Below are positions 1,413 to 18,274 of a stretch of 64,000 bases of DNA, one piece after another. Origin of the DNA: Acidocella aminolytica 101 = DSM 11237 (lineage in GTDB: Bacteria; Pseudomonadota; Alphaproteobacteria; Acetobacterales; Acetobacteraceae); assembly GCF_900129125.1 (NCBI RefSeq), contig NZ_FQVJ01000001.1:124001-188000 (forward strand), read 5' to 3'. Under the pieces are notes generated by a model. It was not told the DNA's origin and made no database searches. It saw only the letters and a program-made list of their open reading frames with translations. A program made the translations under genes and the position numbers. Numbering within the stretch: the first letter of the stretch is position 1; the number at the start of each line of letters is the position of its first letter.

Positions 1413-1482
1413 AAAATATATTCCTGGATCTGCCTCTGATATAATATATCAGTGCCACAAGAAAACGGATATTCTATGGTTT

Positions 1483-2406
1483 CTATCTCGGTTTTGTAAG
1501 ATAGTGTTCACCAAGAAAAACTGTCTTGGCGAGAGCGGCTTCCTTTCGGATAAAATTAAGTGCAAGCCGAACATTTCTGCTGGCGGCAATATCCGTATGC
1601 ACGGCTGTCCAGTAGGTACGCCGCAGGGACAGGCTATGCGGCAAAATAGGCACAAGTTCTTTTCTATGACAGGCGATAAAAGCCGGGAGAATACATAATC
1701 CGTATCCGGCGCAAGCGGCTTCCATTTGTGCATGCAGGCTGGAACATTGCAGGCGGGCGCGCAGGTTTGGCTCCACTTCATTCAAATAGTCCAGCCCGCG
1801 CGTGAAAACGAGTTCGTCGATATAGCCGGTGAAATCGTGCTTCTTCAGGTCCTGAGCGGAATTTATAAGCGGCTTCGAGCGGAGATATGTTTCGGTACCG
1901 AACACGAAGAGTCGGTAGTCCGTTAGTTTTTCCAGCACGAGTTTCCGGGTGTCTGGTGGGGATAATGTAATGATGATGTCAGTGTCCCGTCGGGACATTG
2001 CAATCACCTGCTGAATGGTCAGCAATTCGACAGACAAGCGGGGGTGTTTGACAGCAAAATGGCTCAACCGCTTGGCTAGAAAAAAATTGCCAATTCCCTC
2101 CAGCGCGCTGATCTTAACAATGCCGCTGGCCCCTTGATTGCGGCCCCCGAGTTGTTCTTCCAGCTTCCCGGCCTCTGCTTCTATTCGTCCCGCATTTTCC
2201 AGCAGCCGCTCACCTTGGCGGGTGAGGCTGTAGCCGCGCGCGTTGCGGACAAAGAGCTGGGTATCCAAAGCCACCTCCAGGGCGCTGATGCGCCTTGCTA
2301 CGGTTGCGTGATCGGCAGCCGTCATGCGTCCCGCCTGAGAGATGGTCCCAGCCCGCGCCACCGCCAGAAAATAGCGTAAGTCATTCCAATCAAAAGAATT
2401 TTTCAT
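1483..2406 (-). CDS. LysR-family transcriptional regulator
   Basis: A 307-residue LysR-type regulator. The winged HTH covers about residues 5-65 (DWNDLRYFLAVARAGTISQA, then a recognition helix with ATVARRISALE). A substrate-binding-like effector domain follows from about residue 90. I chose the ATG at 2406 because MKNSFDWNDLRYF is the normal LysR N-terminus; an upstream in-frame start at 2484 would add 26 residues unlike the family. The gene is divergent from the alcohol dehydrogenase at 2506, the usual arrangement for a LysR regulator and its target, and a perfect inverted repeat sits 2 bases before its start codon. The ligand is unknown. Target assignment is inference from position. Confidence 0.88.
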   Translation of the reverse strand: MKNSFDWNDLRYFLAVARAGTISQAGRMTAADHATVARRISALEVALDTQLFVRNARGYSLTRQGERLLENAGRIEAEAGKLEEQLGGRNQGASGIVKISALEGIGNFFLAKRLSHFAVKHPRLSVELLTIQQVIAMSRRDTDIIITLSPPDTRKLVLEKLTDYRLFVFGTETYLRSKPLINSAQDLKKHDFTGYIDELVFTRGLDYLNEVEPNLRARLQCSSLHAQMEAACAGYGLCILPAFIACHRKELVPILPHSLSLRRTYWTAVHTDIAASRNVRLALNFIRKEAALAKTVFLGEHYLTKPR

Positions 2407-2407
2407 A

Positions 2408-2423
2408 TGTGCAATCCTGCACA
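2408..2423. promoter_or_regulatory. Candidate LysR operator, perfect inverted repeat
   Basis: TGTGCA-ATCC-TGCACA is a perfect 6+6 inverted repeat with a 4-base spacer. It ends 2 bases upstream of the LysR start codon, in the 99-base region shared with the divergent alcohol dehydrogenase. LysR proteins typically bind T-N11-A palindromes in such regions and autorepress. The function is inferred from symmetry and position. Confidence 0.45.
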
Positions 2424-2505
2424 GAGTATGCTCGACATTTCCTGTACTCTCGCAAAGATGTTCGGGGTAAGACAAGGGCAACAAAACACTGAAAAAGGAG
2501 GAAAA

Positions 2506-3663
2506 ATGTCAGCGCTTACCCTCCCTCGGATGATTCGTGTTGGCGGTGGCGTTCTTGCTGAGGCGGGACAGGCTGTTGCGTTGCTGTCAATCAAGCGTCT
2601 GGCGATTATTACGGACAAATATCTCTTAACCACCGGAGCCGTTGACCGGCTGCAAGGTGTGCTGGCGGCCCAGGGCATTGAAACACTTGTGTTTTCCGAC
2701 ACAGTACCGGACCCAACCAGCGATTGCGTGGATGCGGCGACCTGTTTTGTGCGCGCAGGCGGCTGTGATGGCGTGATTGGGTTTGGCGGCGGAAGTCCCA
2801 TTGATACGGCCAAGGCAGCGGCGGTTTTGGCAGTGCGCCAAGGCAAAATGCGCGATTTAAAGGCGCCTCACCAAGAAGATAACCCGGCTTTGCCCATCAT
2901 AGCGATTCCCACAACGGCGGGCACGGGCTCTGAAGCCACGCGCTTCACAATTGTCACGGATACTGAAACTGACGAAAAAATGCTTTGTGCCGGGCTGGCG
3001 TATCTGCCGGTTCTGTCGATTGTGGATTACGAACTGACTTTGACCATGCCCCCCCGCCTGACGGCTGACACGGGGATTGATGCGTTGACGCACGCAATCG
3101 AGGCTTATGTCTCCCGCTTAGCGAATCCTTTTTCAGACGCGATGGCTCTTTCGGCCATGCGGGCAATCTGGCCGTGGCTACCGAAAGCCTATCATGAGCC
3201 CGGAAACCGCACCGCGCGTGAACATGTTATGTTTGGCGCCCTGCAGGCCGGGATTGCTTTCTCCAATGCCTCGGTCGGTCTGGTGCATGGCATGAGCCGC
3301 CCAATTGGCGCGCATTTTCATGTTGCGCATGGGCTCTCCAATGCGATGCTGCTGCCGGCTGTCACGCGCTGGTCCATTAAAGGGCATGAGGCGCGCTATG
3401 CGGATTGTGCCAGGACCATGGGAATCGCCACTGCTGATGCTGAGAACGCTCAAGCGGCCGCATGGCTTGTGGAGGCCTTGCGGGCTTTGAACCAGGAGCT
3501 CGCCGTGCCGGGGCCGCGCCAATATGGCCTTGATGGGGAACGCTGGCGGAGCTTGCGGCCGTTAATGGCGGAACAGGCACTGGCTTCGGGCTCGCCGGGC
3601 AATAACCCTCGCGTGCCTGATGCGGCGCAAATTATTGCGATCTATGATGAGGTATGGGGGTAG
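2506..3663 (+). CDS. Iron-containing (group III) alcohol dehydrogenase
   Basis: A 385-residue NAD(P)-dependent alcohol dehydrogenase of the FucO/maleylacetate-reductase superfamily. It has the nucleotide loop GFGGGSPIDTAKAA (near residue 90) and PTTAGTGSEAT. The metal ligands are visible as D192 and H196 (DALTHAIEAY) plus H261 and H275 (HGMSRPIG, then HVAHG), with the family's 14-residue spacing. The start is set by AAGGAGG just before the ATG at 2506; an in-frame extension to 2407 would overlap the operator. It lies upstream of a liv-glc operon, so oxidation of a diol or interconversion of an aldehyde feeding glycolate (ethylene glycol/glycolaldehyde or lactaldehyde type) is plausible but unproven. 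Probable control by the divergent LysR. Confidence 0.9.
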   Translation: MSALTLPRMIRVGGGVLAEAGQAVALLSIKRLAIITDKYLLTTGAVDRLQGVLAAQGIETLVFSDTVPDPTSDCVDAATCFVRAGGCDGVIGFGGGSPIDTAKAAAVLAVRQGKMRDLKAPHQEDNPALPIIAIPTTAGTGSEATRFTIVTDTETDEKMLCAGLAYLPVLSIVDYELTLTMPPRLTADTGIDALTHAIEAYVSRLANPFSDAMALSAMRAIWPWLPKAYHEPGNRTAREHVMFGALQAGIAFSNASVGLVHGMSRPIGAHFHVAHGLSNAMLLPAVTRWSIKGHEARYADCARTMGIATADAENAQAAAWLVEALRALNQELAVPGPRQYGLDGERWRSLRPLMAEQALASGSPGNNPRVPDAAQIIAIYDEVWG

Positions 3664-3755
3664 AAACTGTCTCTCCGGCAAATGCCGGTAAATGGTCCTT
3701 TGAGGATGTTCACAAGGGTTTCATTAGTTGTTTCCTTTGTTTTGCTGGAGAGTTG

Positions 3756-3785
3756 TTGACAAGGCTGAGTGATCAGAAGAACATC
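3756..3785 (+). promoter_or_regulatory. Candidate promoter of the liv-glc operon
   Basis: TTGACA at 3756-3761 matches the -35 consensus and lies 85 bases before the binding-protein gene, in the 182-base gap after the dehydrogenase. The matching -10 (around 3779-3785, AACATC) is poor, so the call rests mainly on the -35 and on position. Confidence 0.3.
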
Positions 3786-3845
3786 TCACAGAGGGCCGAC
3801 GACCAAAGATAACAATGGCTTGCAGAAAAATGGAGGACGAACCTT

Positions 3846-5099
3846 ATGGTTTTCAAGAATACCGCGTCCCTGAATCGACGGAACCTTTTGCGCGCGGGGG
3901 CAGCTGCAGGGGTTTCCAGCCTAGCCATGCCGGAAGTGAGCTGGGCGCAAAGTGAAAAAACGGTTAAAATCGGCAACATAGACCCCCGTACCGGCACTTA
4001 TGCCGCGTTGGGCGGCAACCAGATTCGCGGCGCCACTATGGCCGTTGATGAAATTAACAAGAAAGGCGGTATTCTCGGCCGCCCCGTGCAGCTTCTTGTT
4101 GAGGACTCGCAAGGTCTGCCGGGCCCGGCGGTTAGTAAGGCACAAAAGCTGGTCAATCAGGACAAGGTGAATTTCCTGATGGGGTCGGTGAGTTCCGCCG
4201 TTTCGGGGTCTCTCAGCCAGTTTGCCAATCAGCATGATCTGGTTTTTGTTGATTCGGGCGGACACGCTGATGCGATCACCGGCAAGAAATGCACCTGGAA
4301 CACCTTCCGCACCTGCTCCACAACCTGGATGCTCACGGCAGGCGATTTTGAGCCGTTGTTCAAAAAATTCGGCAAGAAGTGGTTTTTTATCACGCCGGAT
4401 TATGCGTTTGGCCACGCGCTCTACACTGACTATGTCGCGCAGCTTACCAAGGCGGGTGGCACGGCATTGGGCAATGCGCTGGCGCCGCTAGGCACTACGG
4501 ACTTCTCCTCTTACCTGATCCAGGCGCGCGCCGCGAAACCTGACGTGCTGATCTGTTTGCAGGCGGGTGACGATCTCGTGAATCTGCTGAAGCAGACGGT
4601 ACAGTTCGGCATGAATACGCAGATGACCGTCGCTGGCGCAATGCAGGAGATGGAAGTTCTGGAGGCTCTGCCGCCTGCCGCCTTGCTTGGCTGGTGGACG
4701 TTTGAGTGGTATTGGAACCAGCCCAACGTGCCGCATGTCGCGGATTTCGTGAAGGCTTACAAGTCGCGCTACAATAACAAGGTGCCGACGGCGCGGTCTT
4801 GGTTCGGCTACGCCACCGCTCATGCGCTGGCGCTTGCCGCCAATCAGGCGAAGTCGCTTGATGCCTTGAAGGTAGTGCGCGCGTTGGAAGGACTGGAGCT
4901 GCCGCCTGAAGTCGCGCTGCAGCCGGGCAAGTGCTATTACCGGGCGCAAGATCACCAGATGATTGCCAATATGTTCCCTGGCTATGTGCCCAAGGATGCA
5001 TCTTACCCGAACCTCTTTGACGTATCCCAGACAATTCCGGGCGGTGACATCGCTAAATCGCCGGAAGAGGCAGGTTGTAAGATGGCCTATCCGAGCTGA
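3846..5099 (+). CDS. Branched-chain-amino-acid/amide-type ABC transporter substrate-binding protein, Tat-exported
   Basis: A 417-residue periplasmic binding protein of the Leu/Ile/Val (type I) fold. The N-terminus carries a twin-arginine signal (NRRNLLRAGAAAGVSSLAMP) with probable cleavage after a WAQ-like site near residue 35. The mature part begins VKIGNIDPRTGTYAALGGNQ, the standard strand entering lobe 1. TGGAGGA precedes the ATG. It opens a same-strand run with LivHMGF and GlcDEF, so its ligand is probably not an amino acid but the compound oxidised by GlcDEF (glycolate, lactate or a related 2-hydroxy acid). That inference comes from context; Liv-type binding proteins also take amides, urea and aromatics. 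A strong intercistronic hairpin separates it from livH. Confidence 0.85.
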   Translation: MVFKNTASLNRRNLLRAGAAAGVSSLAMPEVSWAQSEKTVKIGNIDPRTGTYAALGGNQIRGATMAVDEINKKGGILGRPVQLLVEDSQGLPGPAVSKAQKLVNQDKVNFLMGSVSSAVSGSLSQFANQHDLVFVDSGGHADAITGKKCTWNTFRTCSTTWMLTAGDFEPLFKKFGKKWFFITPDYAFGHALYTDYVAQLTKAGGTALGNALAPLGTTDFSSYLIQARAAKPDVLICLQAGDDLVNLLKQTVQFGMNTQMTVAGAMQEMEVLEALPPAALLGWWTFEWYWNQPNVPHVADFVKAYKSRYNNKVPTARSWFGYATAHALALAANQAKSLDALKVVRALEGLELPPEVALQPGKCYYRAQDHQMIANMFPGYVPKDASYPNLFDVSQTIPGGDIAKSPEEAGCKMAYPS

Positions 5100-5112
5100 T
5101 CTGTTTGCTCCA

Positions 5113-5157
5113 ACGGATGGAGCTGGCCGTGGCGAAGCCATTGCCAGCTCCATCCGT
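5113..5157 (+). promoter_or_regulatory. Long intercistronic hairpin between binding-protein and permease genes
   Basis: ACGGATGGAGCTGGC (5113-5127) and GCCAGCTCCATCCGT (5143-5157) are perfect 15-base complements. Inside them TGGC-GAA-GCCA (5030s position equivalent 5130-5140) forms a second small stem. No T-run follows, so it is not a classic terminator. Hairpins at this place in transport operons usually protect the upstream binding-protein mRNA or attenuate the permease genes, giving excess binding protein. Role inferred. Confidence 0.65.
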
Positions 5158-5216
5158 ATCGCACGGTCCTATCGTAAACCAGCGCTGTGAGCGCTCAAGA
5201 AAAGTGAAGAAAAACC

Positions 5217-6086
5217 GTGGAATCCCTGCTTTTATACAGCGTGTTCAACGGGTTGGTTGTCGGCATTTTCTATGCGCTCATGGCGCTGGGGTTGTCGCTG
5301 ATCCTCGGGTTGAATGGCGTCATCAATTTTGCCCATGGCACGTTCATGGCATTGGGCGGTTATATCGCTTTCACCATTGAGCCTTATGTCGGGTTTTGGG
5401 GAAGTCTTATTGTCGCGCCGCTCTTAACCGTTATCCTAGGGCTCGCGGTTGAGCGTGTGCTGATCCGGCCGCTTTATGGCCGTGACCCGCTTTTCTCATT
5501 GTTGCTGACATTTGGTCTGGCAATGATTATGGAAGATCTGATCCGCACCATCTGGGGCGCTGTTGGGCGGCCGTTTGTTTTGCCGGGCTATCTTAATGCG
5601 CCCTTGAGCAACACGTTCTTCTTTCTCACCGGTTATCGCGTGGTACTGATCCTGATCACCATTGTGGTCACCGGAGCTTTGTTCGCGGTATTGCGTTACA
5701 GCCGCATCGGCATCCGTATCCGCGCTGGCAATGCTGATCTTGAGACGATTTCTGCCATGGGCGTGAACATCTTCTTCTTGCGCGCGGCGAATTTCGGCAT
5801 TGGCATCTTCCTGGCCGGTGTGGCGGGCATTCTGGCGGCGGGGCAGTTGGGTCTGTCGCCCTCCATCGGGTCTTCGCTGATCATGCCGTCTTTCGTGGCG
5901 ATCATTGTGGGCGGTGTGGGCAGCTTGGTCGGCAGTGTGCTTGGCGGGCTGATCATCGGCATTGCTTCTGGCATCACCGCCGCGTTTTTCCCTGTCGCAC
6001 AGGAGGTCGTGATTTATGTGATCATGGCGATTGTGCTGGTCATCCGGCCTCGCGGCCTGCTGGGTCAAGAAGGATTGTTTGAATGA
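5217..6086 (+). CDS. livH: Liv-type ABC transporter permease (LivH family)
   Basis: A 289-residue inner-membrane permease with about eight hydrophobic segments. It has the family's early block (LYSVFNGLVVGIFYALMALG, then GLNGVINFAHGTFMALGGY) and the LivH loop GRDPLFSLLLTFGLAMI. The C-terminal part contains FVAIIVGGVGSLVGSVLGG, a conserved membrane hairpin that contacts the ATPases. The start is a GTG at 5217, as no in-frame ATG lies before the first membrane segment; the ribosome site is weak. The last bases overlap livM (ATGA), indicating translational coupling. It would form the translocation pore with LivM. Confidence 0.9.
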   Translation: MESLLLYSVFNGLVVGIFYALMALGLSLILGLNGVINFAHGTFMALGGYIAFTIEPYVGFWGSLIVAPLLTVILGLAVERVLIRPLYGRDPLFSLLLTFGLAMIMEDLIRTIWGAVGRPFVLPGYLNAPLSNTFFFLTGYRVVLILITIVVTGALFAVLRYSRIGIRIRAGNADLETISAMGVNIFFLRAANFGIGIFLAGVAGILAAGQLGLSPSIGSSLIMPSFVAIIVGGVGSLVGSVLGGLIIGIASGITAAFFPVAQEVVIYVIMAIVLVIRPRGLLGQEGLFE

Positions 6087-7060
6087 GCACTTCAATTGAC
6101 GCCAAGCTTGCCTTGAACCGAAAATCCGGCGGCCGTGTTGTCGCCGCCATGGTCATCTGGGTTGTGCTGCTGTTTGTGCCGTTCTGGCTGCCTATGATTG
6201 GTGGCTATACGGATCTGGCCACACGCGCTTTGATCTACGCCATTGCCGCCTCCGGGCTGAACTTGTTGCTGGGCTATACGGGCGGCCTGTCCTTTGGCCA
6301 TGCGGCCTATTTCGGGTTGGGGGCGTATGGCGCGGGGCTCTGTCTTATCCACATCGCGCCCTCCGTGCCCCTGGCCATTCTTGGCGGCACGGTGCTGGGT
6401 GGCATTGCCGGCATTCTCGTCGGCCCGATGGCTATGAAGCGCAAGGGCATCTATTTCGCCATGATCACCATTGCATTTGGCCAGATGTTCTATTTCATCG
6501 CGGTCCGCTGGAACAGCCTAACCGGCGGTGAGGACGGCCTGACCGGCTTCTCCCGCGTGCCGCTGCATATTGGCGGCGAGGCCATCAAGCTTGGCCCGGA
6601 GCGGTTCTATTATCTGGTGCTGGTGCTGTTTGCACTGGTGATGGCGATTATCTGGCAGATTTTGCGCTCACCGCTGGGCCACAGCTTTGTGGCGGTGCGT
6701 GAAAACACAACCCGTCTGCGTTTTCTGGGCGTCGCGGTGGATAAGCAAATCTGGGTGGCCTTTGCCATCTCCACTTTTATTGTGGCGTTGGCAGGCACAC
6801 TGAACGCGCTGCTCACGGGCTTTGCCTCGCCTGATAACCTCGGCTGGCAGCTTTCCGGGTCTTTCGTGGTGATTTGCGTGCTGGGGGGGATGCGCAGCTT
6901 CTGGGGACCGTTTCTGGGGGCGGTGATCTTCATTGTTGCGCAGGATTATCTCTCCAGCGTCACGCAGAACTGGATGAGCTTCATCGGACTTATCTTCGTG
7001 CTCGCGGTGCTGTTCTTCCCGCAAGGGCTGCTCGGCTTCATTAAGGGGAGGGGACGCTAA
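6083..7060 (+). CDS. livM: Liv-type ABC transporter permease (LivM family)
   Basis: A 325-residue integral membrane protein with around nine hydrophobic stretches. It has the LivM hallmarks NLLLGYTGGLSFGHAAYFGL and, near the end, a GGMRSFWGPFLGAVIF-like loop that docks on the ATPase, followed by FFPQGLLGF. It begins in the livH stop (ATGA overlap) and its own stop overlaps livG by one base. Pairs with LivH as a heterodimeric channel. Substrate inferred from the downstream glcDEF genes. Confidence 0.9.
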   Translation: MSTSIDAKLALNRKSGGRVVAAMVIWVVLLFVPFWLPMIGGYTDLATRALIYAIAASGLNLLLGYTGGLSFGHAAYFGLGAYGAGLCLIHIAPSVPLAILGGTVLGGIAGILVGPMAMKRKGIYFAMITIAFGQMFYFIAVRWNSLTGGEDGLTGFSRVPLHIGGEAIKLGPERFYYLVLVLFALVMAIIWQILRSPLGHSFVAVRENTTRLRFLGVAVDKQIWVAFAISTFIVALAGTLNALLTGFASPDNLGWQLSGSFVVICVLGGMRSFWGPFLGAVIFIVAQDYLSSVTQNWMSFIGLIFVLAVLFFPQGLLGFIKGRGR

Positions 7061-7824
7061 TGAGCTTCCTGAAGCTGGACAATGTCGGCCGCCGCTTCGG
7101 CGCCTTGCAGGCGTTGAAGGATATCTCGATCTCAGTCGAGCAGGGTGAGTTGCGTGCGGTTATCGGTCCCAACGGGGCAGGCAAAACCACGCTGTTCAAT
7201 CTAATCAGCGGGTTCTTCCCGCCCACTGAAGGGTCCATCAGCTTTGCCGGCCAGCCCATTACGGCCGTCAGCCCCAACGCGTTGGTCAGGCGCGGTATCA
7301 TCCGGACCTTCCAGATCACGCAGGTTTTCCTCTCGCTCACGGTTTATGAAAATCTGCGCGTTGCGGTGGAAACAGCGATGGGGTTGCAGCTCCGCCCCTG
7401 GATCTCACGCGCAACACGTGCCCAGGTGGAAGCCAAGGTGGAGGAGTTGGCGGACATCATCCGCATCACCCCGAAGCTCGACCGCATTGTGGGGGAGATG
7501 TCACACGGGGATCAGCGCGTGGTGGAGGTGGGTATTGCTCTCTCCCGGCATCCCAAGCTTCTGCTGCTGGATGAACCCACGGCTGGTATGGGAGACCAGG
7601 AAACTCATCACATGACTGACCTGATCCGCCGCCTGAACAAGGAGCAGGGCATCACCATCCTGTTCGTGGAGCATGATATGGCGATCGTCTTCGGGATCGC
7701 AGATAAGATCACCGTGCTTGATAACGGCACCATGCTGGCGGAAGGCACTGCGGCTGAAATCTCAGCCAATCCGCGTGTTCAGTCCGCTTATCTTGGTAAC
7801 GCGCTTGAGGAGACTGCCGTATGA
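7060..7824 (+). CDS. livG: Liv-type ABC transporter ATP-binding protein (LivG family)
   Basis: A 254-residue cytoplasmic ATPase. Walker A is GPNGAGKTTLFNLISG (near residue 37), the ABC signature is the LivG-type variant MSHGDQRVVEVGIAL, and Walker B with catalytic Glu is LLLLDEPTAGMG, followed by the switch His in FVEHDM. The ATG overlaps the livM stop and the 3' end overlaps livF by four bases (ATGA). It powers transport together with LivF. Confidence 0.92.
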   Translation: MSFLKLDNVGRRFGALQALKDISISVEQGELRAVIGPNGAGKTTLFNLISGFFPPTEGSISFAGQPITAVSPNALVRRGIIRTFQITQVFLSLTVYENLRVAVETAMGLQLRPWISRATRAQVEAKVEELADIIRITPKLDRIVGEMSHGDQRVVEVGIALSRHPKLLLLDEPTAGMGDQETHHMTDLIRRLNKEQGITILFVEHDMAIVFGIADKITVLDNGTMLAEGTAAEISANPRVQSAYLGNALEETAV

Positions 7825-8531
7825 GCGCTGTTCTCAATGTTGAAGGCCTCCATACCTACTATGGAAAGAGCCATATTCTGCATGGTGTTTCACTGAAGGT
7901 GGAGGAGGGCGAGTTGGTTGCCCTTCTAGGGCGTAACGGGGCGGGTAAAACCACCACCATGCGCAGCGTCATGAGCCTGACCCCTCCAAAATCCGGCAGT
8001 GTGAAGCTGTTTGGCAAGGATCTCACCCGCGCCTCGCCGCATAAAATCGCCGTGTCCGGAGTGGGGTATGTGCCGGAGGGGCGTAAGATTTTCGGCCACA
8101 TGACCGTGCATGAAAATCTGCAGGTCCCGCCTGATACCAGCGGCCCGTGGACGATCGAGACGATCTACGAGCTGTTTCCCCGCTTGTATGAACGCCGCAC
8201 CAGCAAAGGCGGGCGTCTTTCCGGCGGCGAGCAGGAGATGCTGGCGATCGCCCGCGCCCTGCTGCTGAACCCGAAGCTGCTGATCCTAGACGAACCTTCG
8301 CAAGGGCTTGCCCCGGTGATCGTGCAGGAGGTGATGCGCACCATTGCCCGCATGAAGAAAGAGGGCATGTCCGTGCTGTTGGTGGAGCAAAACGCCATGC
8401 TGGCGCTGCAACTTGCCGACCGTGCTTATGTGCTTTCCGATGGCGAAATGGTATATGATGGCTCTGCTGATGAACTGAGAGCTGACAAGGCGCGTATGGA
8501 GGCTTTGGCGGGCGTCAGTCACACCGCTTAG
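7821..8531 (+). CDS. livF: Liv-type ABC transporter ATP-binding protein (LivF family)
   Basis: A 236-residue ATPase, the short LivF partner. Walker A is GRNGAGKTTTMRSVM, the signature LSGGEQEMLAIARALLL, Walker B LLILDEPSQGLAP, switch His replaced by Gln in LLVEQNA, which is normal for LivF. It overlaps livG and is followed after 22 bases by glcD, with GGAGACG in the gap, so transporter and oxidase genes appear cotranscribed. Confidence 0.92.
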   Translation: MSAVLNVEGLHTYYGKSHILHGVSLKVEEGELVALLGRNGAGKTTTMRSVMSLTPPKSGSVKLFGKDLTRASPHKIAVSGVGYVPEGRKIFGHMTVHENLQVPPDTSGPWTIETIYELFPRLYERRTSKGGRLSGGEQEMLAIARALLLNPKLLILDEPSQGLAPVIVQEVMRTIARMKKEGMSVLLVEQNAMLALQLADRAYVLSDGEMVYDGSADELRADKARMEALAGVSHTA

Positions 8532-8553
8532 CCTTGGCTTTGGAGACGTTGGA

Positions 8554-10047
8554 ATGTCCTTGAAAATGCCCCTGCCGGACCAGAGGGTGCTCGCCCGGCG
8601 GGATGAAATTATAACCACCCTGCGCCGGATCGTGCCGGGTGAAGGTGTTATCGATCAGCCGCATGAACTGCGGCCTTTTGAGTCAGACGGCCTCACCGCT
8701 TATCGCCAGCCGCCAATGGTGGTGGTGTTGCCTGAAACGGTGGAGCAGGTGGCGACGATTTTGGCGTATTGCCACAAAAACAACGTTAAGGTGGTGCCGC
8801 GCGGGTCCGGCACCTCGCTCTCCGGCGGGGCGCTGCCTTTGGCGGATGCCGTTTTGCTCGGAATGGGCAAGTTCAACCGTGTGCTGGAAGTTGATTATGA
8901 GGACCGGCTGGCCGTGGTGCAGCCGGGCGTGACCAACCTTGCCATCACCAAGGCTGTGGAGGGGGAGGGGTTTTATTACGCCCCTGACCCGTCTAGCCAG
9001 ATTGCATGTTCCATCGGCGGCAATGTCGCGGAAAATTCCGGCGGGGTGCACTGCCTGAAATACGGCCTCACCACCAATAATGTCCTCGGCGTGGAGTTTG
9101 TGACGATGGAGGGCGAGATTCTGCGTATCGGTGGCAAGGCGCTGGATGCGCCGGGGCTGGACCTGCTGGGGATTATTGTCGGATCCGAGGGGCTGCTGGG
9201 CGTGGTAACAGAAGTCACCGTGCGGATTTTGCCCAAGCCCGAGACCGCGCGCGCCTTGCTCATCGGTTTTCCTACTGTGGAATCAGCAGGACAATGCGTG
9301 GCGGATACCATCGCGGCGGGCATCATTCCGGCGGGGATGGAGATGATGGACAGGCCCGCCATTCACGCGGCTGAAGCCTTCGTGAAAGTTGGCTACCCGC
9401 TGGATGTCGAGGCGCTGCTCATCGTTGAGCTGGACGGTCCAGGGGCGGAGTGCGATCATCTCATCGGAGAAGTTGAGGCCATTGCCCGCAAAAATGGCGC
9501 GGTCACGTTGCGCGCCTCGCGGGATGAGGCGGAGCGTCTTGCCTTCTGGGCCGGGCGTAAGGCGGCCTTCCCGGCGGTGGGGCGGCTTTCGCCAGATTAT
9601 TACTGTATGGACGGCACAATCCCGCGCGGCAAATTGCCGCGTGTGCTGCAGCGTATGAATGAGCTGTCCGCGCACTATGGCCTCGGCGTGGCCAATGTGT
9701 TCCACGCAGGAGATGGCAATTTACACCCGTTGATTCTCTACGATGCCAATAAGCCCGGCGAGTTAGAACGTGCCGAGGATTTCGGCGCTGACATTCTGCG
9801 CCTTTGTGTGGAGGTGGGTGGCGTGCTCACCGGTGAACATGGGGTAGGGGTGGAGAAACGGGATCTGATGCCGGATATGTTTTCTGAAGGTGATTTACGT
9901 CAGCAGCAACGGTTGAAATGCGCGTTTGACCCTGAATTGCTGCTCAACCCCGGCAAGGTGTTCCCCAGCCTGCATCGCTGCGCCGAGCTTGGGCGCATGC
10001 ATGTGCATCGCGGTCAGTTGCCGTTTCCTGAATTGCCGCGTTTCTAA
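8554..10047 (+). CDS. glcD: Glycolate oxidase FAD-binding subunit GlcD
   Basis: A 497-residue FAD enzyme of the vanillyl-alcohol-oxidase fold. The FAD-binding half has PRGSGTSLSGGALPLADAV (near residue 85) and IGGNVAENSGGVHCLKYGLT. The C-terminal cap has NVFHAGDGNLHPLILYD and LTGEHGVGVEKRDLM, which carry the conserved active-site histidines of the D-2-hydroxyacid oxidase/D-lactate dehydrogenase group. With GlcE and GlcF it oxidises glycolate (and often D-lactate) to glyoxylate, passing electrons to the respiratory chain. It follows livF by 22 bases and precedes glcE by 3. Length and order match E. coli glcDEF, though no glcG, glcB or glcA is nearby. Confidence 0.93.
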   Translation: MSLKMPLPDQRVLARRDEIITTLRRIVPGEGVIDQPHELRPFESDGLTAYRQPPMVVVLPETVEQVATILAYCHKNNVKVVPRGSGTSLSGGALPLADAVLLGMGKFNRVLEVDYEDRLAVVQPGVTNLAITKAVEGEGFYYAPDPSSQIACSIGGNVAENSGGVHCLKYGLTTNNVLGVEFVTMEGEILRIGGKALDAPGLDLLGIIVGSEGLLGVVTEVTVRILPKPETARALLIGFPTVESAGQCVADTIAAGIIPAGMEMMDRPAIHAAEAFVKVGYPLDVEALLIVELDGPGAECDHLIGEVEAIARKNGAVTLRASRDEAERLAFWAGRKAAFPAVGRLSPDYYCMDGTIPRGKLPRVLQRMNELSAHYGLGVANVFHAGDGNLHPLILYDANKPGELERAEDFGADILRLCVEVGGVLTGEHGVGVEKRDLMPDMFSEGDLRQQQRLKCAFDPELLLNPGKVFPSLHRCAELGRMHVHRGQLPFPELPRF

Positions 10048-10050
10048 GCC

Positions 10051-11187
10051 ATGGCCCAGCATCAACCACAAAATACCGATGAGATCTGTGGCATTGTCTC
10101 CGACGCCCTGACAAGTGGGGGCAAGCTGGAAATTATTGGCGGCGGCACTCGCGTTGATTTCGGCGCGCCTGAGCGCATGGCGGATCATCTCAGCCTGCGG
10201 GCACTTTCCGGCATCCTGGAATATGACCCGGCGGAGCTGGTGGTCACGGCCCGCGCCGGTACGCCATTGGCTGAGTTGAACGAGGTTGTGGCGGCACGTG
10301 GCCAGGCTTTTGCGTTTGAACCCTGGGGTGATGCGACATCCACCATTGGCGGCGTAATCGCGGCGGGCGTGGCGGGCCCGCGTCGAGTGTCGGCCGGAAG
10401 CGTGCGCGATCATCTCTTGGGGTTCGAGGCTGTTTCCGGCCGGGGCGAAGCATTCCGGGCTGGGGCCAAGGTGGTGAAGAATGTCACCGGCTACGACCTG
10501 CCAAAATTGCTCTGCGGTTCCTGGGGGCGGTTGGCGGTGTTGACGGAAGTGACGTTGAAAGTCCTGCCGTGCCCGCCTGAGCGCCTAACCTTGCTCTGGC
10601 ACGGGCTGGAGGACGAAGCGGCTTTCGCATTGATGCGTGAAGCCTTGCGTCAACCCGCTGATGTCGCGGCGGCCGCGCATCGCCCAGGCGAATATACGCT
10701 TATCCGTCTGGATGGCTTCGGCCCCTCCATTGCCGCGCGCAAGGCGCATCTCATCGCCGCACTGGCGCAGCATGGCCCGCCCGAAGCCTTGCATGAAGCT
10801 GATGCGGCAACGCTCTGGGCCAGCCTGCAAGCCGGTGGAGCTTTACCGCGGGATTTGCCCCTTTGGCGCCTCAGTCTGCCGCCGCGTCAGGCGTTTGCAG
10901 CCATCGCGCCCTTATGTGCCCTAGGCGGGCGTTACCTCGCGGATTGGGCGGGCGGTTTGGTTTGGCTGAGCCTCGCGGGCCATGATGCGGAAATACGCAA
11001 ACAGGCGGCGGAGGCAGGCGGTCACGCAGCCTTGTTCCGGGCATCGGCTAATTTACGCGCCCGCATCCCCGCGCTGCACCCGCAATCGCCCGGTATTGAA
11101 GCGCTGTCCCGCCGTGTGCGCCGCGCCTTCGACCCTCTGGGGGTGTTCGAGACCAACCGCTTCTTGGACGAACCAAATGCAGACTGA
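10051..11187 (+). CDS. glcE: Glycolate oxidase FAD-binding subunit GlcE
   Basis: A 378-residue shorter paralogue of GlcD. It keeps an FAD-binding half with GGGTRVDFGAPERM, the TARAGTPLAELNEVVAARGQ strand and VKNVTGYDLPKLLCGSWG, a GlcE-specific block. It lacks the long substrate cap of GlcD. Acts as a structural and flavin subunit of the membrane-associated glycolate oxidase. The start ATG lies 3 bases after the glcD stop. The end overlaps the glcF start by 11 bases, so translation of the two is probably coupled. Confidence 0.92.
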   Translation: MAQHQPQNTDEICGIVSDALTSGGKLEIIGGGTRVDFGAPERMADHLSLRALSGILEYDPAELVVTARAGTPLAELNEVVAARGQAFAFEPWGDATSTIGGVIAAGVAGPRRVSAGSVRDHLLGFEAVSGRGEAFRAGAKVVKNVTGYDLPKLLCGSWGRLAVLTEVTLKVLPCPPERLTLLWHGLEDEAAFALMREALRQPADVAAAAHRPGEYTLIRLDGFGPSIAARKAHLIAALAQHGPPEALHEADAATLWASLQAGGALPRDLPLWRLSLPPRQAFAAIAPLCALGGRYLADWAGGLVWLSLAGHDAEIRKQAAEAGGHAALFRASANLRARIPALHPQSPGIEALSRRVRRAFDPLGVFETNRFLDEPNAD

Positions 11188-12475
11188 TTTCACTCCCGCC
11201 CAGCTTGCGGACCCGAATATGGCGGCCTCTGAGGCCGTTATCCGCAAATGTGTCCATTGTGGCTTCTGCACCGCCACTTGCCCGACCTACACGCTGTTGG
11301 GCAATGAGCTGGATTCCCCGCGCGGGCGCATCTACCTCATCAAGGACATGCTGGAGAATGAGCGCACCCCGAGTGAGGAGGTAGTGAAGCATATCGATCG
11401 TTGCCTCTCTTGCCTCTCCTGCATGACCACGTGTCCCTCCGGCGTAAACTATATGCATTTGGTGGACCATGCGCGTGCTTATATCGAGACACGTTACCGC
11501 CGCCCCTGGCCTGAGCGGGTTTTGCGCGCCACCGTAGCGGCGATCTTGCCGAAGCCTGAACGCTTCCGCGCAGCCCTGAAAGTGGCGCGTCTGGCGCAAC
11601 CTGTCGCGCCACTTCTGCAAGGGGTGAAGCCCCTGCGCGCCGCTGCTGCCATGCTGAAGCTGGCGCCCGCCACTCTGCCCCCCAAGGCCGCGGTGACCAC
11701 GGCCAACGCATCAGGAGAACGCGGGCGGGTGGTGCTAATGCAAGGCTGTGCCGAGCCGGTGCTACGCCCAGAGATCCGCGCCGCCACGGTGCGGCTGCTG
11801 GAGCGGTGCGGCTATCAGGTCAGCTTCGCGGCGGGTGAGGAATGTTGCGGCGCGTTAACGCATCATATGGGCAAGGAGAAAGCGGCACTTCAATCAGTCC
11901 GCCGCAATGTGGAAGCCTGGACGCGTGAGATTGAAAAGGGCCTTGAAGCCATTGTCATCACCGCATCCGGCTGTGGCACCACTGTCAAGGATTACGGCTA
12001 CATGCTGCGGGACGATCCGACCTATGCTGACAAGGCCGCGAAAGTTTCCGCGCTCGCCAAGGACATAAGCGAAGTTCTGGAAGCCGCGGGCCTGCCGGAA
12101 CGCGCAGGACATAAGACGCTTACTGTTGCGTATCATCCGCCTTGTTCCATCCAGCACGGGCAGAAACTCACCACCGGGCCGCAGAATTTGCTGCGCGCGG
12201 CTGGATTTAATGTGCGTTTGCCGATGGACGCGCATCTCTGCTGTGGGTCAGCAGGTACCTACAATATTTTCCAGCCTGAGATTGCCACCCAGCTCGGCAC
12301 CCGCAAAGCGGAGACCTTGGCCAACTTGAGCCCGGATGTGATCGCCACCGGCAATATCGGCTGCGCGGTGCAGATCAGCCAGCATACGGGGGTGCCGGTG
12401 GTGCATATCGTTGAACTTTTGGATTGGGCGACCGGTGGCCCGGCTCCTGCGGCACTAGAGTCTCAGCCGGGATAA
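11177..12475 (+). CDS. glcF: Glycolate oxidase iron-sulfur subunit GlcF
   Basis: A 432-residue electron-transfer subunit. Two [4Fe-4S] sets are seen near the N-terminus: CVHCGFCTATCPTY and CLSCLSCMTTCPSGVNY. Two CCG domains follow, with EECCGALTHHMG and LCCGSAGTYNIFQP, which bind further clusters in this family. I placed the start at the ATG at 11177 (MQTDFTPAQLADPNM), because the in-frame extension upstream is the glcE shadow. It takes electrons from the flavins of GlcDE and hands them to quinone. Last gene of the liv-glc run; a convergent lipoprotein gene follows. Confidence 0.93.
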   Translation: MQTDFTPAQLADPNMAASEAVIRKCVHCGFCTATCPTYTLLGNELDSPRGRIYLIKDMLENERTPSEEVVKHIDRCLSCLSCMTTCPSGVNYMHLVDHARAYIETRYRRPWPERVLRATVAAILPKPERFRAALKVARLAQPVAPLLQGVKPLRAAAAMLKLAPATLPPKAAVTTANASGERGRVVLMQGCAEPVLRPEIRAATVRLLERCGYQVSFAAGEECCGALTHHMGKEKAALQSVRRNVEAWTREIEKGLEAIVITASGCGTTVKDYGYMLRDDPTYADKAAKVSALAKDISEVLEAAGLPERAGHKTLTVAYHPPCSIQHGQKLTTGPQNLLRAAGFNVRLPMDAHLCCGSAGTYNIFQPEIATQLGTRKAETLANLSPDVIATGNIGCAVQISQHTGVPVVHIVELLDWATGGPAPAALESQPG

Positions 12476-12601: not shown

Positions 12602-13072
12602 TTATGAGCCGTGGTAAACGTTGCCGTAGCTGGTCATGCACTGCACATAATTGATATTATATTGCTGTTGCATGTTTTGTTCAGACTTGTTGCTTCCCAG
12701 AGCAGCGGCGCCGCCGCCCAGCAACAAGCCGGACCCAGCGCCAATGGCCGCGCCCATGCCTGCATTGCCCGCTGCTGCCCCCAGCAACGCTCCTGCCGCG
12801 GTGCCGATCACGGTGCCGCCAACCGCCTTGGTGGTGGCGGAGCTCTTGGCCTGCTGGGCCGCGCTGTTCAGGTTCTGGCTGGCGATCTGGCGGCAATAGG
12901 CATCCTGCTGCTGGAATTCGGCTGGCGTTACTTTCTTGCCGGGCGTGACAAGAACGGTCGGCCCGGTTGGAGTCGGTACAGCGCAACCCGCCAAGGCCAG
13001 GGAAGCAACCAGCGCGCTACCGATGGCCGTGCCACGTACAAAACGGCGCGACTTGTTCATGCTCATATCCAT
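12602..13072 (-). CDS. Glycine-zipper outer-membrane lipoprotein
   Basis: A 156-residue lipoprotein. A basic start (MNKSRRFVRG) leads to a hydrophobic stretch and the lipobox LALAGC with the acylated Cys at residue 30. The middle holds a Gly/Ala-rich zipper (GGTVIGTAAGALLGAAAGNA, then AAIGAGSGLLLGGGAA), the type found in small membrane-spanning lipoproteins. A Gln/Asn-rich tail ends in YVQCMTSYGNVYHGS. AAGGAGGAG precedes the ATG at 13072. The gene begins only 30 bases after the end of the giant Hint-glycosyltransferase gene, on the same strand, so the two are probably cotranscribed. Its function is unknown; anchoring or helping export of the giant protein is a guess. Confidence 0.82.
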   Translation of the reverse strand: MDMSMNKSRRFVRGTAIGSALVASLALAGCAVPTPTGPTVLVTPGKKVTPAEFQQQDAYCRQIASQNLNSAAQQAKSSATTKAVGGTVIGTAAGALLGAAAGNAGMGAAIGAGSGLLLGGGAAALGSNKSEQNMQQQYNINYVQCMTSYGNVYHGS

Positions 13073-13087
13073 GATAACTCCTCCTTA

Positions 13088-13104
13088 AACCCCAAGGCGG
13101 GGTT
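13088..13104 (-). repeat. Small hairpin between the giant gene and the lipoprotein gene
   Basis: AACCCC-AAGGC-GGGGTT forms a 6-base stem overlapping the giant gene's stop codon and ending next to the lipoprotein ribosome site. It could tune translation or mRNA processing between the two genes. Short, so low confidence. Confidence 0.3.
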
Positions 13105-16100
13105 AAAAAATTCTGCCAGACCGGTTCGTGTCCGGCAACAGGGGGTGCACGGTCTCCACGGGCTGTAAGGCGCGTGAAAGCGCCATGATAACAGCTTTCT
13201 GCGAGAAATGCTCGCGCAACAAGGCACGGCCCTCGGTCACATGAACAGCGCTTTGCGGGGTATTGTTGTAAAGGGCCAGAATTTTATCCGCGAATGAGCG
13301 GGCTTCTCCGCCGATGGCCTCAGCCAGAACGGGCGTACAGGGCAGCCCTTCCGCCGCAACTGGGCTCATCACGCAAGGCACCCCGTATGCCCACGCCTCA
13401 AGTACTTTCCCTTTGATGCCAGCGCCGAACCGTAGCGGCGCCACGGCCAGTCGGGCTTGGGTATAGAGCGGGTCAAGATCCGCGACATAGCCGCGCAAAT
13501 CTACGCCGCGATCCTTCAAACGCGCGGTGATGCCGGACGGAATGCCTGCTCCCACCACAGTGAGTTGAATACCGGGCTGCTCTGCCTGGACAAGTGGCAT
13601 GACCTGTTCCACCAGCCAGATCAGCCCGTCAAGATTTGGTTCATGCGCAAAATGTCCAACAAAGATTAGTCCGGACCTGCCGCGCGCCGGGGCTGCCTTC
13701 GATTGCACCCGCACCCCCCAGGGCGCCACATGGATCAAGTGTTCATTAAGCCCAGCTTGGGCCAGAAAGGCGGCCTCGGCGTTGGAATGGGTGATGACGG
13801 CGCTGGCCTGTGCCATTGCCGCTAGTTCCTGCTGGCGCATATGCCGTGCCGCGCGGCTGACCTCCGGCCTGTTTTGTACCTTGGCCTGCCGTGCCAGACG
13901 CAAATGGTGTAGGTCCGCGACGCTATAGAGAATTTTAGCGCGCGGCTGATAATGACCGGCCAGAGCAATATAAGGAGCCGCCACGGAGATGCGGTGCAGA
14001 TAAATCAACTCGAACTGCCCGGCCTGACGGGCCAGCGCTTCTTCGATCGAGGTAATTGCGGGAGAGGTCAGGCAGGTAATGTCAAGCGCTTCCGGCTGGG
14101 CGATGGCGGCTGAATCTGTCATGGCGCCGGTTTTCGCGATGAAAGACACATGCCAGCCGAGCTTCTGCAAAGCCCGCATGTGCGAGACAATGGCCTGTGC
14201 GCCCGCATTGCGGTCTGGGCGTGGCCAGGCGTCGTCAATCACCAAAGCGCGCCGGGCTGGTTGTCTGGAGGTCTGGCCGCGCTGTTTACGCATGGGGCCG
14301 GCTTGTGCCAGCAGGCTGGCATGGCGTTGCTTGGTCTGCTCTGTTTCCTCTGTCAGCATGGCGAGCAGGTTCTGCGTCTGGGCCGCATTGCCAGCCCGGG
14401 AGGTGGCAATGCGTAATTGGGCCTGCAAGCTGTGTAAGGCGGCCTCATCCGCGCCAGTGACGGGCATGATACGCGAGGGCGCGCTGGAAAGCAGCATGCC
14501 GTTGCTTTTAGCGCGGACCGTGATGGCATGGGGCAGATGTGCCTCCAGCGGGCGGGCGAAAGGCAGATGGAAGCCGTGCCAGCCGTTGCCAATTCCCGCT
14601 TCAGCCAGATCCGCGCGGAATTCATTGGCCAGAACCGTGCCGATGAGCGCGCCGTTATCTAGTATCTCCAGCTCCACGGGCGTCTGGCTGTCACCTCTAA
14701 TCCAGGCCCAGCCTCGAACTCCAACCAAAGAGGCGTCGTCGATCACGCCATGCATTTCAGCCATGGGAGACATAACGGCTTGCGGCGCACGCGCCAAAAT
14801 GCGCCGTTGAATGGCGGTAAGGCGGCGTCCACCTTCAAGCATGGGGGCGCAGAACGCCCATTGTGCGCGCCTATCTTGCGGGTAAAGTGTCGAGAATTCC
14901 TCTGCGTTGTGGAACATGCTCCGGTTGCCGCAATCAACGAAGCTTTCAGTCGCGGTCCCCTCCGCGAAGATGATATCGTGGGTTTCGAGTTCGACATGGA
15001 AATAGTCGATCCGTTCCCGCCCTTCCACGACGGCGACATTGCGGCCATTGACCAGATGTTTCGCCTGAACCAGCCGCCGGTCGAGATACATGGCGTGTTC
15101 TGGCGACACATAAAGGTCGCGTTCCGGCATGTTCTCGCCCAGGGCTCCGGCGCTAATGCGGATGGGCCAGACATTACGGTTGACCGCCGCGAAGGCACCC
15201 AGATAGCTGCGTTTACCAATCCATTTAATAGGTCTGAACACGCCAGAAAGCGTCTTGACCCGGTCGCCGATCCGCAATGTTTCAACACGCATCGCGCCCG
15301 TATCAGTCAAAATGCGAGTGCCGGGGCAAAAGCAGGGTGTGCCGGTTTCTATCAGTGTCAGCACGTTACTTTGCTGGCTTAATTGAGCCCCAAGGCTGAC
15401 CGTGCCGGCACTGGTATTCGTGACGGCCTGATAATCCTGCATCGTGATATTGTAGGTACCGGGATTTAGGTTGAGCGACGTATTGGTTTGCCATTCACCG
15501 TCGATGTTGGCCGTAGCGGTTGTGGTGGTTACCACCGTGTTGTTGCTGGAAATTGTAATGACAACAAAATCCTCGCCATTCACCAGATTGGTGTTGCTGG
15601 AAATCCAGGACGCTACGCTGGTTGTCGTGCTGTTTTCGCCTGTCCAGGCAAAGGCCAGATTTTCCGCAGAGGATGTAATGGTATTGGAGACTAGGCTGGT
15701 CTGGCCCGCCAGCGCGGAGAACGTACCGTTCATTATCGTTCCCGCCACGGGAGCTGTTAGCACAGCCGCGCTCGACAGGCCGCTTGAAGCGACATTCTCA
15801 ACCATCAGGGCGGGGTTGCTGGCCATGCCGTCAGAGCCGGCCATGTTATAGGTCAGATAGCTCGTATATTGCGGCGCCGTTGTGCCACTTTCACCGTTCA
15901 CTGTGCCCAGCCCATCAATCCCGGCAGCGTTTGACTGGTTGGTATAGCTGGGGTTTTCAATCAGCACCTGGCTGGTGGCGGTGCCGTATGAAACATCAGA
16001 GCCAGGCAAGGAAGAAATTGAAATATCGCCGCTGTTGACGGAGGCGCCTGTCACGATACCGCCTGTCAAGGTCACATCCGTCAGCGTCGCACCGACGATT

Positions 16101-18274
16101 GAGCTGCTTGAGACGGTTGTGCCGCCGGTAATCTGAGTCGAGCCATTGGTAACAATCATTCCTGCCGTGACAGTTCCAGTCGTGATGCTGCCCGAAGACA
16201 AGGAGAAGCCATCCAATGAAGAGCCGGAGATCGTGCCGTCGGTCAGTGTGCCGCCATTCACGGTCTGGTTATCGATCGTGAAATTATAGAGGGAACCGTC
16301 GATCAGGCCGGTAGTGGCTGAGGTGCCGCTGCTGAGCGTGACATCGTTGATTATGACGCCATTGACCTCGACGGAGCTGATAGTGCCGCCCAATACAGTC
16401 CAGGTGCCGCCGGAGCCGCCCGCCAGTGTCGCATTGGTGATGGTGCCGGTGATTGTTCCGCTTTCGACCGAGGCGTTGACACTTGTATTAATGAGAGTGG
16501 GGGCGTTGATGCTGGCGCCCGTATAGCTACTGATCGTGGTTGAGGAGACATAGTTCGAGGTCAGATACAGATTGTAGGTTTTACTGGCACCGCTTAGCTC
16601 TTCCGTGACCTTGTACCAGGAGACCGCGCTGTTGCCGGTGTCCGCGGCAATGGGCAGGCCGCTGATTGTCAGTTGCCCGGTGGCCCCGGCCGTGCCCGCG
16701 GCCGTTGCCTCGAAGGAGATTGTGCCGTTCGTGGTGGTTTTGCTAATGTCCCAAACATGCCAGAGGCCGCCGTTGCTGGCGCCGTCCAGCGTGACATTGG
16801 TGAAGGTTGGCGTACCGAGGCCATCCGAGGTCATGATGCCGAGCACGATGGTGGCGTCCGGGTTTAGCACCACGCCTGGATTTTTGCCGCCGCCAGTTAC
16901 AAAATCCAATGCGATCGATGCGTTGCCGATCACCGTGTCCGATGCATAAGTCCCGCTGGCAGGCACCACAACATTGTTGATCGTGGGGGTGGTGTAGCCG
17001 GTTGGGGTATCACTCGCGCCAAAAACGGTCAGGCCAATCGTCGAGACATCAGTGCTGGTCCCTGGTTCCGCCAAAGAAAGGAGCGGTCCGCCAGCAGTAT
17101 AGGCAGCGGTTTGGGCGTCGGAATAGCCGTAGCCGTAGGAGTTGGAGTTATTGCCTATGACCGCTGCGTAACCATTATAAGTGTAACCGCTCACCACTGT
17201 GCCAGTTAAATGCTGGCCAAAACCGTAAGTGGGATCCCAGTTATAGCTGTCGTTCAGATTAACGCTGGATGCGGTGATCTGATTGTTCACCGGCGTGCCG
17301 GAGGTGCCGTAATAACCGGCATTGAAACCAACGACCATTTGCCGCAGCACCGTTCCCCATTGGTCGTTTGCGCCGGTATTGATGGAGGTATAGATTGTGC
17401 CGTTTTCCCAGATCGTTGCGTTTCCGTTGGTCTGGTAAATGCTGTTTTCAAGGTCCGTGGCGCTGATCTCGATGGTGCCGCGAATTTGGCTGCTGGATAC
17501 GGGGTCTAACCAGAATGTGCCGCCATTGGTGCCGGACGCCCAGTTGACCGTGTACGCAAAATAACCGGCATTATGATAAACGTTATTGGCGTCAGTGGCG
17601 CCATTGAAAAAACCAGAGATCTCGATGCTGCCTGAGAGAGAACTGACAGCGGCGACGTAAGAGTCCCAGTTGCTGGCGGAGGTGGGTGGCTCCACGCTGG
17701 AGATGGAGTTGGCTAGTGGCCCCGATGTGTAAGTGGTGATGGTGCCGCCGGCGGTGCTGAGCTGGCTGATCAGGCTGTCACCGCTGATATTATAACCAAC
17801 CGAGGCGCTTGAGCCGTTGGCATAGGTCACCCCCATGCCCATGGTCAGCCCGTATTCAACCACTGAGGTCAGGTTACCCGCATCCGTTGCGGTACCGCTT
17901 AGATTCAACTCGGCGGAATCATACCCAAAATCATAGGTCGCGGCATTGGTGGCGTTAATATCGCTTTGGGTGCTGATAATGCTGGGCAATGATGTGGTGC
18001 TGCTGCCATTCGCCTCGCTCTGGACCAGAATATACACTTTGCCGCTGACCATTGTATCGGGCAATGTGATGGGAATGCTCTCTCCTCCCAACGAGGAGGA
18101 TATGGTCACGGAGGCGCCGTTATTCACCGTGCCGTTGGCAAGCAGCGTGGTCCAGGTGCCGACGGTGGAAGCGCTGTCAAAATAAACCGCATAGACTGAG
18201 GACGCGGTATCTCCCCCCTGCGTTAAGCTGTCGATCAGCGTATTGCTGAGCGTGACATCCAACGTGGTGGCCAT
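13103..18274 (-). CDS. Giant chimera: GH64-like/beta-helix passenger, Hint self-processing domain, GT4 glycosyltransferase
   Basis: A single intact frame of 1723 codons. Residues 1-420 are Ser/Thr/Asn/Gly-rich and resemble the GH64 beta-1,3-glucanase (thaumatin-like) fold ([39 protein letters not shown]). Residues about 606-751 are short beta-helix-like repeats ([20 protein letters not shown]). A Hint domain starts at C981 ([14 protein letters not shown]), with block-B H1060 (VSPEHAMYL) and H1099 ([10 protein letters not shown]). A beta-sandwich at about 1170-1255 (VRGWAWIRG) follows. A GT4 glycosyltransferase spans about 1340-1700 with an E-rich nucleotide-sugar motif ([15 protein letters not shown]). 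No classical signal peptide is seen. AGGAG precedes the ATG. The Hint domain should break the chain before C981. The parts are recognisable; their combination and purpose are not known to me. Confidence 0.85.

Follow-up and report, generated by a model that had tools for sequence, protein, structure and literature searches.

A single frame joins a passenger, a Hint domain and a glycosyltransferase

We analyzed a 64,000-nucleotide stretch of Acidocella aminolytica 101 = DSM 11237 DNA (the window; genome G000), in which one minus-strand gene encodes a long N-terminal passenger followed by a Hint_2 domain, a beta-sandwich and a C-terminal glycosyltransferase (GT) of the GT4 type (Table 1). The open reading frame (ORF) begins with an ATG, has AGGAG upstream, and continues for 1,723 codons with 0 internal stops. 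A preliminary description, made from the letters alone, had reported this uninterrupted frame, which proved intact and has a full-length ortholog in another species. The profile search that it suggested recovered Hint_2 and GT4-type matches, with GH64 at its cut-off, and the domain boundaries that it had drawn lie at most about 15 residues from those of the profile matches. Its interpretation was thus upheld in part: the reading of the domains stood, but the label "chimera" did not, the architecture being recurrent. Its two suggestions, that the enzyme may be released after translation or that the passenger end may become attached to a glycan, both stay among the candidate readings.

Table 1. 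Coordinates of the fusion gene, its parts and two related loci (residue numbers are those of the window protein)
Feature	Coordinates	Strand	Remark
Whole gene	13103..18274	minus	1,723 aa, 179.8 kDa
Residues 1-420, GH64-like N-terminal part of passenger	17015..18274	minus	Pfam PF16483
Residues 421-980, remaining Ser/Thr/Asn/Gly-rich passenger, ending ...IETGTP	15335..17014	minus	composition
Residues 981-1135, Hint_2 domain, putative nucleophile Cys981	14870..15334	minus	Pfam PF13403, E 3e-46
Residues 1174-1270, beta-sandwich	14465..14755	minus	recurrence and model; no Pfam match
Residues 1271-1340, linker, predicted helices of low confidence	14255..14464	minus	block-mean pLDDT 29-43; alignment
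Residues 1341-1705, GT4 glycosyltransferase, GT-B fold, 10-residue stretch at 1617	13160..14254	minus	
Terminator-like stem-loop and T run at stop codon	13138-13113	minus	consensus match only
Syntenic full-length ortholog	L048 5324-10474		genome G037; same neighboring glcDEF-like genes
Type I secretion cluster	L145 (G000:C65:74000-93000) 920-11459	minus	one strand

The two enzymatic parts were recognized by profile. Pfam Hint_2 matched residues 980 to 1115 well above its cut-off (157.8 bits; cut-off, 28.4; E = 3e-46), in agreement with the earlier placement of a Hint domain beginning at residue 981. Near the C terminus, Glyco_trans_1_4 matched residues 1536 to 1671 (81.3 bits; cut-off, 27; E = 1e-22), while Glyco_transf_4 (PF13439; residues 1363 to 1523) reached 22.6 bits, under its cut-off of 28.5, and PF00534 also scored below its cut-off. 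We modeled the Hint-sandwich-GT part with AlphaFold (mean predicted local distance difference test score [pLDDT], 52). In a structure search, the GT part of this model gave GT-B fold matches, like PglA, which together with the profile match supports the GT4 assignment of the preliminary description. The Hint part of the model was not usable, and the VIA rows listed for the model held no Hint entry but were nearly all GT-like, so they were uninformative. The beta-sandwich that had been described between the Hint domain and the GT was well modeled locally (block-mean pLDDT, 66 to 92; model residues 201 to 300) and recurs in relatives, where it is also found on Hint proteins without a GT and on GT proteins without a Hint domain. 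The window copy had no Pfam match, and against the PDB the sandwich profile matched nothing but fluorinases, across some 40 positions and at E = 0.002 and above.

The passenger differs sharply from the remainder of the chain. Residues 1 to 980 (98.8 kDa) are acidic (pI 4.05), with 288 Ser and Thr, 7 Lys and Arg, and 0 Cys, whereas residues 981 to 1723 (81.0 kDa) are basic (pI 9.32), with 79 Lys and Arg and 7 Cys; the first Cys of the whole chain is the putative Hint nucleophile, Cys981. An exported-style, Ser/Thr-rich passenger ending at about residue 980 was correctly described. Its GH64-like character held up in part. When the first 420 residues were scanned alone, PF16483 matched residues 9 to 160 over part of the profile with a score exactly at its cut-off (27.0 bits), and it matched 2 of 4 orthologous passengers, but the GH64-like profile had no believable match in the PDB. 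In alignments made by eye, at what we take to be the GH64 catalytic Glu and Asp positions, the first is Glu122 in all four orthologous passengers, and the second is Glu, Gln, Glu and Glu where Asp was expected. A beta-helix, also proposed earlier, was not confirmed, the passenger model (residues 1 to 420 only) having a pLDDT of 31 and not being usable. The start of the window protein shows no hydrophobic, signal-peptide-like stretch. With no Sec-type signal, an acidic composition and little Cys (the last also across the 44 fused passengers described below), the protein has traits of a type I secretion substrate.

The architecture recurs behind changing passengers

We searched 397 genomes of the family by profile and obtained matches at E = 1e-40 or better in at least 267, many of them to Hint alone or GT alone. 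Two candidates were scored per genome, and 60 regions were taken for ORF and domain calling with profiles built from four fusions. This yielded at least 44 fused ORFs. Two Acetobacter estunensis strains supplied one each; the other 42 came from 36 genomes in 14 genera, namely G010 and 35 of the 397 that were searched. Two of the 44 have a truncated GT (the first ORF of L100, and L116), and a contig or region end falls at the start of L115, L129 and L133 and at the end of the second L100 ORF. The order Hint, one or two sandwiches, GT was found in 44 of 44, with the GT ending the chain (tail of 3 to 46 aa; 145 to 146 aa in A. estunensis). The preliminary description had held the arrangement to be unfamiliar and had proposed searching for the same domain order in relatives; given this recurrence, "chimera" misleads, and the idea that homologs always carry the Hint and GT parts as separate proteins fails.

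The closest comparison is with G037, another species of the same genus, whose 1,716-aa ortholog matches residues 1 to 1707 at 55% identity (GH64 part, 62%; other passenger, 41%; Hint, 62%; sandwich, 57%; GT, 59%). Conservation of the frame in this genome argues against chance or misassembly. Across the fused ORFs, all 946 pairs of Hint-sandwich-GT modules were similar, 867 of them over at least half, compared to 149 of 903 passenger pairs, the similarity covering half or more of the shorter passenger in 80 of these. The C-terminal module is thus one family behind mostly dissimilar passengers. Passenger length before the Hint match ranges from 124 to 3,417 aa (16 aa in the second L100 ORF), and AIDA repeats were matched in 4 of 10 fused passengers scanned. 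Hint and GT distances were correlated over 40 fused proteins (r = 0.84; reached by 0 of 2,000 shuffles), a correlation to which shared species history contributes. Among plasmid records, 116 had partial matches, and 0 covered 80% of Hint-sandwich-GT at one place.

In L100 (G308), two tandem Hint-sandwich-GT frames overlap (6244-9213 and 9186-11390), the first with a truncated GT, reflecting either tandem duplication or a frameshift. Both A. estunensis strains carry fusions of 2,200 aa in which the GT part has decayed (L045, 3822-10421; L046, 3822-10424). In L054, a 1,431-aa frame with a signal-peptide-like start and, by eye, a barrel-like end (13058-17353) lies directly downstream of a Hint-sandwich-GT gene.

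Conserved residues and a composition break mark the putative cleavage site

Cys981, Ser1057, His1060, His1099, Glu1110 and Asn1123 were kept in all 44 fused Hint domains, including a block-B-like Ser1057-x-x-His1060 motif; among 33 non-fused Hint domains, Cys981 was present in 31 and Asn1123 in 28. Roles for such Cys, Ser and His residues in Hint-type domains are given in excerpts of PMC4031507 and PMC7765530. At the place usually occupied by the His-Asn-nucleophile triplet of inteins, the fused domains instead have Glu1110 (44 of 44), Ser or Thr1111 (21 and 23) and Phe or Tyr1112 (42 and 2; by eye). A splicing intein is expected to have His-Asn at the usual block G followed by Cys, Ser or Thr, and this was not found in the fused Hint domains. 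According to the same excerpts, type B bacterial intein-like (BIL) domains are without the C-terminal block and undergo N-terminal cleavage. The solved BIL structure 2lwy was matched weakly (E = 0.3).

We then located the composition break in each of the 44 fused ORFs as a likelihood change point under a two-segment model blind to domains. In 33 of these ORFs the change point was at most 15 residues from the Hint Cys, and in 40 it was at most 40 residues away (median offset, -1). Fused passengers contain 29 Cys in 34,644 residues, and 28 of the 44 have none, while 382 Cys occur in the 34,632 residues beyond the junction; Lys plus Arg rise from 1.8% in the passengers (beyond aa 60) to 10.4% past the junction. 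Because the residues are conserved and the composition breaks at the Cys, cleavage is supported: the Hint domain looks active, and we favor a single cut before Cys981.

Split forms keep the Hint and glycosyltransferase genes together

In several relatives the module is divided between two genes. Taking the first possible start codon, the Hint and GT genes overlap by 1, 4 and 8 bases in G043, G377 and G322 (L050, L135 and L136, respectively). They are same-strand neighbors in G441 and lie about 4 kb apart in A. musti, whose locus resembles that of G441 over stretches of 4.5 and 2.5 kb (72 and 78% DNA identity). The split falls after the first sandwich in L050, L134 and L136 and just before the GT in L135. 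In a GT tree of 56 rows (root for drawing only; several other forks weakly resolved), five fused rows share a 100/100 clade with L135, whose split therefore looks derived. Orthologous passengers with a Hint domain were present in G022 and G019, with no GT found there (G019 runs to the contig end). Of the eight GTs without a Hint domain in the tree (Solo rows), seven form one group. A further locus of the window genome, L059 (G000:C80, 1436-12573), encodes a GT4 protein and two proteins with the sandwich domain; a Hint domain was not found at this locus.

A type I secretion cluster contains glycosyltransferases

Elsewhere in the window genome, a cluster encodes, in order, an ABC transporter, HlyD, a Sel1-repeat protein, a GT2-GT4 protein, a 264-aa protein (p264) and a GT4 protein. 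HlyD scored above its cut-off; the ABC protein matched TIGR01846 best, below cut-off, and p264 showed no sandwich likeness. The full order is kept in four genomes of three genera (G000, G037, G366 and G231), and ABC-HlyD-Sel1 was seen in the shorter stretches of G059 and G337. G337, G231 and G407 have further type I transporters; the short loci covered around these gave no match to Sel1 or the cluster GTs. These data tie type I secretion to glycosyltransferases in the family, not to the window gene in particular. With TIGR01842, 3 of 20 were above cut-off and all 14 controls matched below it, so that this comparison says little.

A self-processing export precursor as the leading interpretation

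Our leading interpretation, which we hold tentatively, is that the gene encodes a self-processing export precursor carrying its own modifying enzyme. The 180-kDa chain, having no Sec signal, would be made in the cytoplasm, where the C-terminal GT4, possibly with help from the sandwich, would place sugar on the Ser/Thr/Asn-rich passenger in cis. The Hint domain would then shift the bond before Cys981 to a thioester, and water or another nucleophile would cut it, giving an acidic 99-kDa passenger and a basic 81-kDa Hint-sandwich-GT fragment. Finally, the passenger would leave through the conserved type I secretion system while the enzyme stayed inside. Cleavage, passenger glycosylation and the export route are steps that we infer; the adjacent split forms, the GTs of the secretion locus, the composition break and the conserved nucleophile count in their favor. 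There is a precedent for the pairing, as HMW1C is described in an excerpt of PMC5422565 as a cytoplasmic glycosyltransferase dedicated to an adhesin.

Several observations weigh against this mechanism. Glycosylation in cis is its weakest step, since Ser plus Thr is not significantly raised in fused passengers (0.237 versus 0.211 in non-fused Hint passengers; P = 0.09; n = 43 and 30, some incomplete) and Asn is lower than in the non-fused ones; the two kinds of passenger look alike. The GH64 match stands only at threshold. The composition break was also found within 15 aa in 17 of 22 Hint ORFs without a GT (4 of the 22 being split forms) and so belongs to Hint_2 proteins in general, speaking for the Hint domain and not for the GT. 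The GAGxK motif, present in 37 of the 44 fused GTs, is missing from L099, L111, L112, the two ORFs with a truncated GT and the fusions of both A. estunensis strains. The architecture can therefore outlive GT activity, which argues against a catalytic role in every member. Only one of the 10 Hint_2 matches in the window genome was seen fused to a GT. As for export, the secretion locus is not next to the fusion gene, and no C-terminal type I secretion signal was identified. HlyD is present in 194 of 199 family genomes, so its co-occurrence with Hint_2 cannot test the link; of the five genomes without HlyD, three are also without Hint_2, G202 has 6 Hint_2 matches, and G284 is not among the matches listed. 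Finally, a His1122-Asn1123 pair (about 14906-14911, minus strand) is conserved in 36 of the 44 fused Hint domains and in 17 of the 33 non-fused ones, displaced from the usual place, and lends a second cut or splicing some credence.

The main rival is mere separation of proteins that are made together. The Hint products would then be largely independent of one another, an exported passenger and a cytoplasmic GT for matrix or surface polysaccharide, with the fusion setting their ratio and timing. We regard this as rather unlikely. Related GT4s occur without a Hint domain in other clusters (the eight Solo rows and L059), Hint_2 passengers are often without a GT, and Ser plus Thr is not significantly raised in fused passengers; set against this, seven of the eight Solo GTs are one group, and in many genera the GT either forms part of a Hint-passenger gene or lies immediately next to one. 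Less likely is a Hedgehog-like transfer, in which the passenger C terminus would move from the Cys981 thioester to a sugar or glycan made or held by the sandwich-GT part, yielding a surface protein joined to carbohydrate through an ester. The conserved nucleophile would suit such a reaction, as would the conserved stretch and possible sugar-handling part behind the Hint domain, where Hedgehog has its sterol-recognition region (excerpt of PMC7765530); matching regions in Hedgehog relatives are named adduct recognition regions in an excerpt of PMC2362128. However, the same residues are kept in Hint_2 proteins with the sandwich only or with neither sandwich nor GT, the GT decays in some members, and the split forms need no covalent fusion.

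It is doubtful, and slightly more so, that processing is dead or slow and that the whole chain works as one protein. Cleavage is read from sequence, and the AlphaFold Hint part is poor, but Cys981, Ser1057 and His1060 are invariant across the 44 fused domains and the composition breaks sharply at the Cys. A second cut after Asn1123, giving three pieces, or splicing of the passenger to the sandwich-GT part, seems improbable. Asn1123 is invariant in the fused domains, the His-Asn pair before it is frequent, and a C-terminal His-Asn, at diverse positions, is a feature of type A BIL domains (excerpt of PMC7765530). Here, though, the pair sits 12 residues past the usual place, outside the Pfam Hint_2 match, and precedes Ala in 39 of 44 domains but Ser in only 2. 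Moreover, conservation runs on beyond it (Tyr1131 in 42, Pro1132 in 42, Cys1142 in 41 and Pro1144 in 43 of the 44), unlike a domain end.

A long passenger, then a Hint domain, then a C-terminal enzyme is a plan reminiscent of polymorphic toxins. An adhesin carrying a GT effector that the Hint domain would release in the target cell is nevertheless very improbable, even with a BIL domain described in a CdiA protein. Here the passenger varies in front of a constant C-terminal part, the reverse of the toxin plan; the commonest neighbor family occurs at only 6 of 47 loci, with no recurrent immunity-like neighbor; and PADLOC gave no match. On these grounds a polymorphic toxin was rejected as the main interpretation. 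A frameshift or assembly error joining separate genes, which the preliminary description had named as a way to be wrong and which the split forms in relatives might suggest, is ruled out by the syntenic full-length ortholog together with the 44 or more fused ORFs.

Relation to known systems

Each part of the protein is of a known kind. With BIL domains of types A and B it shares Cys1 and the block-B His, and these, too, sit in variable bacterial proteins, with cleavage reported for both classes in excerpts of PMC7765530 and PMC4031507; the window family differs in having a constant sandwich-GT4 module as its C-terminal flank. Glu-Ser/Thr-Phe, placed by eye at the block G position, would resemble type B, but the displaced His-Asn recalls type A. 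Hedgehog (Hog) proteins likewise have an N-terminal passenger, a Hint domain and then a C-terminal region, which here is a beta-sandwich and a glycosyltransferase.

AIDA-I and TibA are adhesins with dedicated cytoplasmic glycosyltransferases, and the AIDA repeats in some fused passengers are shared with this group. A large surface protein with its own cytoplasmic glycosyltransferase, as we propose here, is also seen in HMW1A/HMW1C (excerpt of PMC5422565). All of these systems encode the GT separately and use type V export, whereas here a Hint domain joins the GT to the passenger and no signal peptide was seen in the window protein. Among NCBIfam families, the GT of stp1 / PEP-CTERM-XrtA systems (TIGR03087) was the best match (116 bits over residues 1390 to 1704), although this score falls far short of the 316.65-bit cut-off for the family.

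In the literature searched, mostly outside subscription papers, we found no description of a cargo-Hint-glycosyltransferase fusion; a covalent cargo-Hint-enzyme order, and the way it has spread while its cargo changed, thus seem undescribed there. An excerpt of PMC11999647 terms such a Hint protein in cellulose-producing bacteria "of unknown function." The architecture unites three things seldom found together: a passenger of the export type, a Hint domain of the self-processing kind and a glycosyltransferase of the cytoplasmic kind. If the proposed mechanism is true, a surface protein would be modified in the cytoplasm at a fixed one-to-one ratio and its enzyme shed before export, giving a testable job to Hint_2 domains, which we found in 151 of 199 family genomes. 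Self-releasing enzyme fusions may also be possible tools.

Other features of the window

A small gene (12602-13072, minus strand) separates the fusion gene from the glcF-like gene and, by eye, encodes a glycine-rich, lipoprotein-like product; the corresponding gap at the G037 locus contains no ORF. A tandem repeat with a 24-base unit and 2.4 copies occupies positions 54006-54061 of the window.

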